From positions 1 to 32,670 of the forward strand of contig JAFGVN010000085.1 of NCBI GenBank assembly GCA_016937975.1: a stretch of 32,670 bases of DNA, written 5' to 3'. The notes under the pieces are model-generated. The model saw only the letters and a program-made list of their open reading frames with translations, searched no databases and was not told the origin of the DNA. Positions 32,158 to 32,670 of the stretch are shown here, in pieces. The DNA is from Clostridia bacterium. GTDB taxonomy: Bacteria > Bacillota > Clostridia > Peptostreptococcales > Acidaminobacteraceae. Numbering within the stretch: the first letter of the stretch is position 1; every line of letters begins with the position of its first letter. The position numbers and the translations under genes are program-made.

Positions 32158-32214
32158 ATGTTTACTAAAGATTTAATTTTTAATGTAATTCACCATGCAA
32201 AGTTAGCACTTTAA
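32158..32214 (+). CDS. 18-codon leader peptide ORF upstream of the TrmH-type gene
   Basis: An ATG preceded at good spacing by AAAGGTGA opens an 18-codon frame encoding MFTKDLIFNVIHHAKLAL. Its last codons and stop lie inside the first arm and loop of a stem-loop that precedes the methyltransferase gene. The position, length, ribosome binding site and overlap with alternative stems are typical of leader peptides in translational attenuators. It is not rich in one amino acid, so classic amino-acid attenuation is unlikely. Confidence 0.55.
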   Translation: MFTKDLIFNVIHHAKLAL

Positions 32215-32299
32215 AGACGGCATTGCATGGTGTTATAAGCCGCATACTTGAAGTGTAACTTTGCTCTTTAATTAAGACTACAGATAATTTAAGGAGTGA
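32191..32299 (+). promoter_or_regulatory. Candidate translational attenuator with mutually exclusive stems
   Basis: Stem A pairs CACCATGCAA (32191-32200) with TTGCATGGTG (32223-32232). Stem B pairs GCAAAGTTAGCACTT (32197-32211) with AAGTGTAACTTTGC (32251-32264), with one bulged base. A and B share 32197-32200 and cannot form fully together. Stem C pairs TTGCTCTTTAA (32261-32271) with TTAAGGAGTGA (32289-32299), with three G-U pairs, and covers the ribosome binding site AAGGAG of the next gene; B and C share bases 32261-32264. A ribosome held on the leader ORF would mask the first arm and change which stems form. Folded by eye only. Confidence 0.5.
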
Positions 32300-32304
32300 T
32301 GAAC

Positions 32305-32506
32305 ATGAAAAGTATTGAAATTGGGTATCGCCACCCAGCGATTCAACAATATTTAGAAACAAAAAAAGGGAATAAAAAAGACCATTTTGCCATTGAAAGT
32401 ATTTGGTCATATGAAAAAATAATCTCGACAAACTTAAAAATTGAAGATCTTTTTTATGCACCAGAATGCATTAAAGATGATTTTCAAAAAGAGGTTTTAT
32501 CTGTTA
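32305..32506 (+). pseudogene. TrmH/SpoU-family RNA 2'-O-methyltransferase, 5' part, cut by an IS element
   Basis: The first roughly 67 residues (MKSIEIGYRHPAIQQYLE, HFAIESIWSYEKII, LKIEDLFYAPE) match the N-terminal substrate-binding part of clostridial TrmH-family methyltransferases, which modify rRNA or tRNA ribose. Full proteins are about 250 aa. The frame then runs into the IS end and stops at 32607 after unrelated residues beginning near VRNLPHLAYQ, so the gene is interrupted. The SPOUT catalytic knot would lie beyond the element, outside the window. I chose the ATG at 32305, 8 nt after AAGGAG. The leader ORF and stems upstream suggest it was regulated by attenuation. The exact junction is uncertain by about 10 nt. 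Confidence 0.65.
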
Positions 32507-32670
32507 GGAACCTCCCTCACTTAGCCTATCAATTCGACTTGAAGTGGGGGTTTCTTATTTCAACTGAAACATACCTCAAACGAAGTGAATGTTTTCAGAA
32601 TTTATAAGCAACACACTCGGTGTGGGCTGGTCCTAGCCATTTACTACTTCTTGCTTACGCAATACGTAGA
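32507..32670 (-). mobile_element. Right end of a probable IS200/IS605-family (TnpB-type) element with omega-RNA-like structure
   Basis: Read on the minus strand, the last 164 nt show a chain of small hairpins (GGCT/AGCC, CACAC/GTGTG). A terminal imperfect hairpin then has arms near GAAACCCCCACTT and AAGTGAGGGAGGTTC. That pattern is typical of the 3' ends of tnpB elements, where the TnpB guide RNA scaffold ends at the element boundary and the guide is read from flanking DNA. A frame ending at 32629 on the minus strand (YVLRKQEVVNG, then stop) could be the end of tnpB. The transposase body is outside the window. The boundary is placed where the TrmH reading frame loses family similarity. Confidence 0.5.

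Follow-up and report, generated by a model that had tools for sequence, protein, structure and literature searches.

A SpoU/TrmH-family RNA methyltransferase gene at the end of the window is very probably interrupted by a tnpB-type element of the IS200/IS605 family, which would have inserted beside a TTTAA and would take its guide from the host gene. The window, the whole stretch of DNA that was analysed, is 32,670 bases long and makes up an entire contig (C11) of a genome of 4.03 Mb in 153 contigs. The contig ends inside a repeated element, and no contig of the assembly spans the insertion. We observe a repeat, both of its ends, the 3' end of a tnpB gene, a TTTAA at all the full left ends that were found, a split gene, and synteny across the two halves of that gene (Table 1).

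Table 1. Positions of the features discussed in the text (window coordinates unless a locus is named).
Feature	Position	Strand	Basis
Leader ORF of 18 codons, outside the element	32158..32214	+	conserved HA(K/R), four orthologous loci
Competing hairpins, 32191-32200/32223-32232 versus 32197-32205/32256-32264	32191..32298	+	stem tests
Stem over the ribosome site, 32262-32271/32289-32298	within 32191..32298	+	stem tests
Leader regions	window 32158-32298; L032:1345-1506; L033:1680-1830 (minus); L034:1290-1497		
5' fragment of the SpoU/TrmH-family RNA methyltransferase gene, 67 codons, broken by the insertion	32305..32505	+	same-genus orthologue, 49% identical
Presumptive guide, 16 nt from the host gene, AACAGATAAAACCTCT	32490..32505	-	adjoins the right tip; joined flanks read TTTAA, then this sequence
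Right end of the tnpB-type element (tnpB 3' end and guide-RNA scaffold), cut by the contig end	32506..32670	-	repeat at 20 places; aligns with right ends of TnpB relatives
Right tip, GGTTCCT in the window and GGTTCAT in the 19 other copies of the genome	32506..32512	-	copy comparison
Terminal hairpin, arms 32514-32520 and 32544-32550, one mismatch in the window copy	32514..32550	-	sequence by eye; homologous stems in relatives
Last four tnpB codons (L R I A) and stop	32655..32669	-	translation; the TnpBs of L075 and L074 close with the same residues

The reading frame that opens at 32305 aligns with a 254-aa SpoU-family protein of the same genus (residues 1-65 of the 68 searched, E 3e-13). The gene is split after codon 67, and the frame passes into the repeat at 32506. 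The 68-aa fragment alone matched no Pfam or NCBIfam model. The orthologue L032, from the same-genus genome G001, matches the Pfam model SpoU_methylase (PF00588) with 120 bits, and all 13 NCBIfam models that it matched scored below their own cut-offs. With the G001 orthologue as a query on the window's own genome, residues 62-251 were found at the end of another contig, C35, directly adjoining a left end of the element. This half aligns with L032, which together with the match of L032 itself places the SpoU_methylase domain in the interrupted gene. When the flanks are joined at 32505, the frame is open to residue 82 and can be aligned with the orthologue over the junction. None of the 13 cuts tested for joining the two halves gives a frame that is open to the end, so that the frame test alone does not fix the boundary. 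The half on C35 has two stops within the matched stretch; the 3' half of the gene has been damaged further, or contains a sequence error. The G001 query found no uninterrupted copy of the gene in the window's genome, where the other SpoU-like matches are open frames of 253 aa (C76) and 280 aa (C129). The methyltransferase had no match among viral contigs, and the 120 plasmid records that it matched were all below 60% identity. In the second same-genus genome, G002, the orthologue (L033:943-1700, minus) contains an in-frame stop within the N-terminal region.

Gene order brings the two halves together. Beyond the gene half on C35 lies a peptidase gene with 69% identity to its counterpart next to the G002 orthologue, and a single contig stretch of G002 carries this counterpart, the orthologue and a VanY-like gene, hence both flanks at once. 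In G002 the VanY-like gene is separated from the orthologue by one further gene (aminotransferase-like, by eye), and it is the direct neighbour of the methyltransferase gene in G001 and in the window. The VanY-like protein of G001 is 57% identical to that of G002 and 51% to that of the window. The right end of the element had no match in G001 or G002. An assembly error could in theory have set the end of a repeat against a gene that is intact in the organism, since the contig stops within a repeat and the assembly consists of 153 contigs. We consider this most improbable: the second gene half, on a separate contig, independently stops at a left end of the element, and TTTAA, orientation and synteny are all as expected there. 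It is also very unlikely that the gene is otherwise intact and was misread in sequencing, given that the C-terminal part of the gene lies on C35 beside the left end.

The right-end repeat occurs at 20 places in the genome, assembled from 22 match pieces (the search gave 36 rows, of which the 14 with E >= 0.18 were dropped). All 20 right ends lie at most 300 bases from a contig end, as expected if the assembly breaks at a multi-copy element. The flanks beyond the copies differ, so that the comparison of copies sets the boundary at 32505/32506; the sequence GAACC is preceded by AT in 19 of the 20 copies and by AG in the window copy only. An earlier note on this DNA had proposed a TrmH-type gene interrupted by a TnpB-type element, with a frame that leaves its family sequence near 32506, where a terminal hairpin of the guide-RNA scaffold kind begins on the minus strand. 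The orthologue match, the second gene half on C35 and the copy comparison agree with it on each of these points, as does the comparison with an uninterrupted orthologue that it had called for, since the joined flanks align across the junction. The left end that it had placed beyond the window adjoins the gene half on C35.

Several lines of evidence suggest that the right end encodes a guide-RNA scaffold. Its fold has an energy of -44.6 kcal/mol, compared with -35.1 +/- 3.8 kcal/mol for shuffled sequences, and 2 of the 200 shuffles were equally good. We aligned 16 right ends, three from this genome and 13 from relatives (the stretches of L112, L114 and L136 were not trimmed exactly at the tip). 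After the tnpB stop, the relatives show a AGTAGTAGA-like block, then the terminal hairpin, then a tip ending in TTCA(C/T). The terminal stem shows compensating changes among the TnpB relatives: CCGCC/GGCGG in L112, CCACC/GGTGG in L136 and CCTCT/AGAGG in L113. The automatic stem finder chose a different stem in the window, L117, L127, L135, L138 and L140. The scaffold is thus conserved with the tnpB relatives, by alignment and by compensated stems, and ends at the tip of the element. A regular expression for the right end matched 24 of 30 loci, a count that is no independent test of TTCA, which the expression includes; the six misses (L114, L117, L127, L136, L138, L140) have TTCAT or TTCAC by eye. 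A search of Rfam with four loci (E <= 1) gave no family at the right end and two sub-threshold matches elsewhere. In the window, Rfam gave no match and a tRNA search found none.

The window copy shows signs of wear. It is the only one of the 20 with TTCCT instead of TTCAT at the tip, and in its terminal stem a C stands opposite an A (by eye). The transposase, too, would cut at the right tip. The structure of ISDra2 has a pseudoknot at bases -5 to -3 before the guide and a non-canonical pair made by the A at -2, as described in PMC10097598; judging by position, the base changed in the window copy would be that A. This copy is probably old and weakened, its age being suggested by the tip, the stem mismatch and the lesion in the gene.

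The end of C35, used as a query, gave 31 rows: 19 full left ends, three partial pieces on C110 and C116, and nine weak rows that were dropped. C110 (L041:1-280) and C116 (L042:1-200) carry short forms with both end sequences, resembling non-autonomous derivatives. In the orientation of the element, TTTAA precedes all 19 full left ends and the sequence beyond it differs; TTTAA is absent at the right ends. This pattern fits an element that inserts on the 3' side of a short fixed target and does not duplicate it. In the IS200/IS605 family, hairpins stand near both ends of the element and are not inverted copies of each other. The left- and right-end sequences differ here too, and the hairpins are not inverted to each other, the left-end palindrome having been read by eye and the right-end hairpin identified by folding and stem comparison. 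TTTAA is probably host sequence, to judge from its constancy beside variable flanks and from the case published for Sulfolobus (PMC11043419). A search for the site of the C93 copy in other genomes gave matches in four, at 39-48% identity, and failed as a check that TTTAA belongs to the host. At the end of C17 (L054), a second left-end tip directly follows the first, which looks like the insertion of one element at another's end.

In elements of this type, the tnpB gene encodes RuvC and zinc-ribbon domains; the window itself shows the 3' end of tnpB only. A longer piece is found in the copy on C51, with 45 codons of a TnpB tail that is 76% identical to the tail of L074, from a genome of the same family; L112, which is the same sequence as L074, matches Cas12f1-like_TNB. 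A full-length relative, L075, from a genome of the same order, matches OrfB_IS605 and Cas12f1-like_TNB. With the TnpB of L075 as the query, no intact tnpB of the element's group was found in the assembly, which has the C51 fragment and a decayed piece on C3. The latter lies at the end of L099, and its last 48 bases are the start of the C51 stretch (L028:1-290) by eye, as in an old copy of the element. The same query also matched a TnpB of another group on C76. We rejected the TnpBs of C131 and C76 as belonging to this element: the stretches around them had no blastn match (E <= 1e-5) to the other stretches compared. The earlier note expected a tnpB beyond the window; its 3' end is in the window and fragments lie on C51 and C3, and the assembly has no intact gene of this group. 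In C116 a left end is followed by a presumed tnpB start, and C132 runs from a left end to the same presumed start (by eye); in both there is no room for tnpA between the two (by eye). Elements of this type carry the Y1 transposase gene tnpA themselves or depend on one elsewhere. Three matches to Y1 transposases were found in the genome, two on C76 and a partial one on C119, contigs without counted copies of the element. Taken together, the features of the right end, of tnpB and of the left end are best read as those of a tnpB-type element of the IS200/IS605 family.

The insertion may itself be a short non-autonomous derivative, one without a working tnpB, that was mobilised or guided in trans or is now dead. 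We give this somewhat less than even weight. On C110 and C116, left- and right-end sequences lie within about 280 and 200 bases, which leaves no space for tnpB (C116 retains only some 14 codons of the presumed start); the lack of an intact tnpB of this group and the tip and stem changes particular to the window copy point the same way. However, the window copy still has the region of the tnpB stop, where it is 98% identical to C152, a copy with at least 18 in-frame tnpB codons, and it is thus not among the shortest forms.

In the reading that we favour, that of a tnpB-type element with a guide from the host gene, an insertion sequence of about 20 copies would have landed next to TTTAA inside the methyltransferase gene, reading against it. 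Its right end would encode the scaffold of the TnpB guide RNA (reRNA or omega-RNA) and, if this RNA is produced, the host bases that adjoin the tip would be its guide, as the earlier note had supposed. In ISDra2, the last ~16 nt of the reRNA come from the flanking DNA, and the donor joint has been proposed as the site at which its TnpB cuts (PMC8612924). For the Sulfolobus IS605 TnpB, TTTAA is both the predicted insertion site and the TAM, and UUCAC directly precedes the guide (PMC11043419). If a copy works, its excision would re-form the empty site (TTTAA and guide), TnpB would cut there, and repair after that cut would restore the element. Allowing up to two mismatches, the 16-nt guide has 19 matches in the genome: its own site, the only exact match, and 18 others with two mismatches each, compared with eight for the reversed control. 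TTTAA followed by 13 guide bases (18 bases, up to three mismatches) has 55 matches, of which the best four have two mismatches each, compared with 21 for the control. No second exact copy of the guide was found in the genome. The earlier note had also suggested that the element could target an uninterrupted copy of the locus. This stands in principle, as family design, and the search with the G001 orthologue found no such copy to be targeted here; the targeting of the empty allele would be general to TnpB elements, following the account in PMC8612924, and not special to the window copy.

Upstream of the methyltransferase gene lies a short leader that is more unusual, with its hairpins, than the insertion itself. 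The leader peptide reads MFTKDLIFNVIHHAKLAL in the window, MHYVLNDKRHAKLGL and MNVYELNDTCHARLRL in the same-genus relatives G001 and G002, and (M)NIHQAVNDLRHAR in G011, from another genus, where a TTG start is assumed. The HA(K/R) near its end is conserved in all four. The leader is present in four of the five genomes with a match to the frame from 32305; in the fifth, G019, the gene begins about 10 bp after another ORF, which leaves no room for it. Two segments, a middle and a later one, compete for pairing with the last leader codons, giving mutually exclusive hairpins. When the 3' side was shuffled 200 times, no shuffle reached the best stem of the window, of G001 or of G002. In G011 it was reached by 20 of 200, the search start being too narrow there; with a wider start and perfect stems, a different test, the best stem has 15 bp and was reached by 1 of 500 shuffles. 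The stem that wholly or partially covers the ribosome site has 10 bp in the window and 8 bp in both G001 and G002; G011 has only 6 bp there. The overall fold of the window leader is modestly better than that of shuffles (z -1.75; 7 of 200 equally good), and the leader had no Rfam match in the window. The arrangement resembles translational attenuation of the erm type, a model of control by a leader peptide. We tentatively suggest, while rating it below an even chance, that the leader may be an erm-like translational attenuator that would sense stalled ribosomes and switch on the SpoU-family methyltransferase, the gene that the element would have knocked out. Among the paper titles listed in a literature search, none dealt with such control of a SpoU-family gene. 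A SpoU-family methyltransferase inducible by ribosome stress would, if real, matter more than the insertion.

The insertion itself is ordinary and follows the textbook design of TnpB elements. It provides a readable case of a TnpB element whose guide would be taken from the gene it interrupts, in a genome that carries about 20 copies, and it shows how copies decay; the picture of the family is unchanged. A close parallel is ISDra2 of Deinococcus radiodurans, which, as presented in PMC8612924, likewise combines tnpB with a right-end guide-RNA scaffold and a flank-derived guide, has a 5-base target next to its left end, and has the empty site as its target. The target is TTGAT in ISDra2 and TTTAA here and, unlike in ISDra2, tnpA is absent between the left end and the presumed tnpB start in C116 and C132 (by eye). 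The IS605-type elements of Sulfolobus islandicus (SisTnpB) share the TTTAA insertion and a guide immediately after the right end, according to PMC11043419. They are archaeal, and their right end is TTCAC, whereas it is TTCAT in the copies of this genome and TTCCT in the window copy. The TnpBs of Clostridium sp. OS1-26, Desulfosporosinus, Trichococcus, a Thermincola MAG and others (L113-L139) come from other genomes and hosts, and many have a long open tnpB, in contrast to the element described here; their right ends can be aligned with those of this genome, and their C-terminal sequences are 57-69% identical (best segment) to that of the family neighbour L074/L112.
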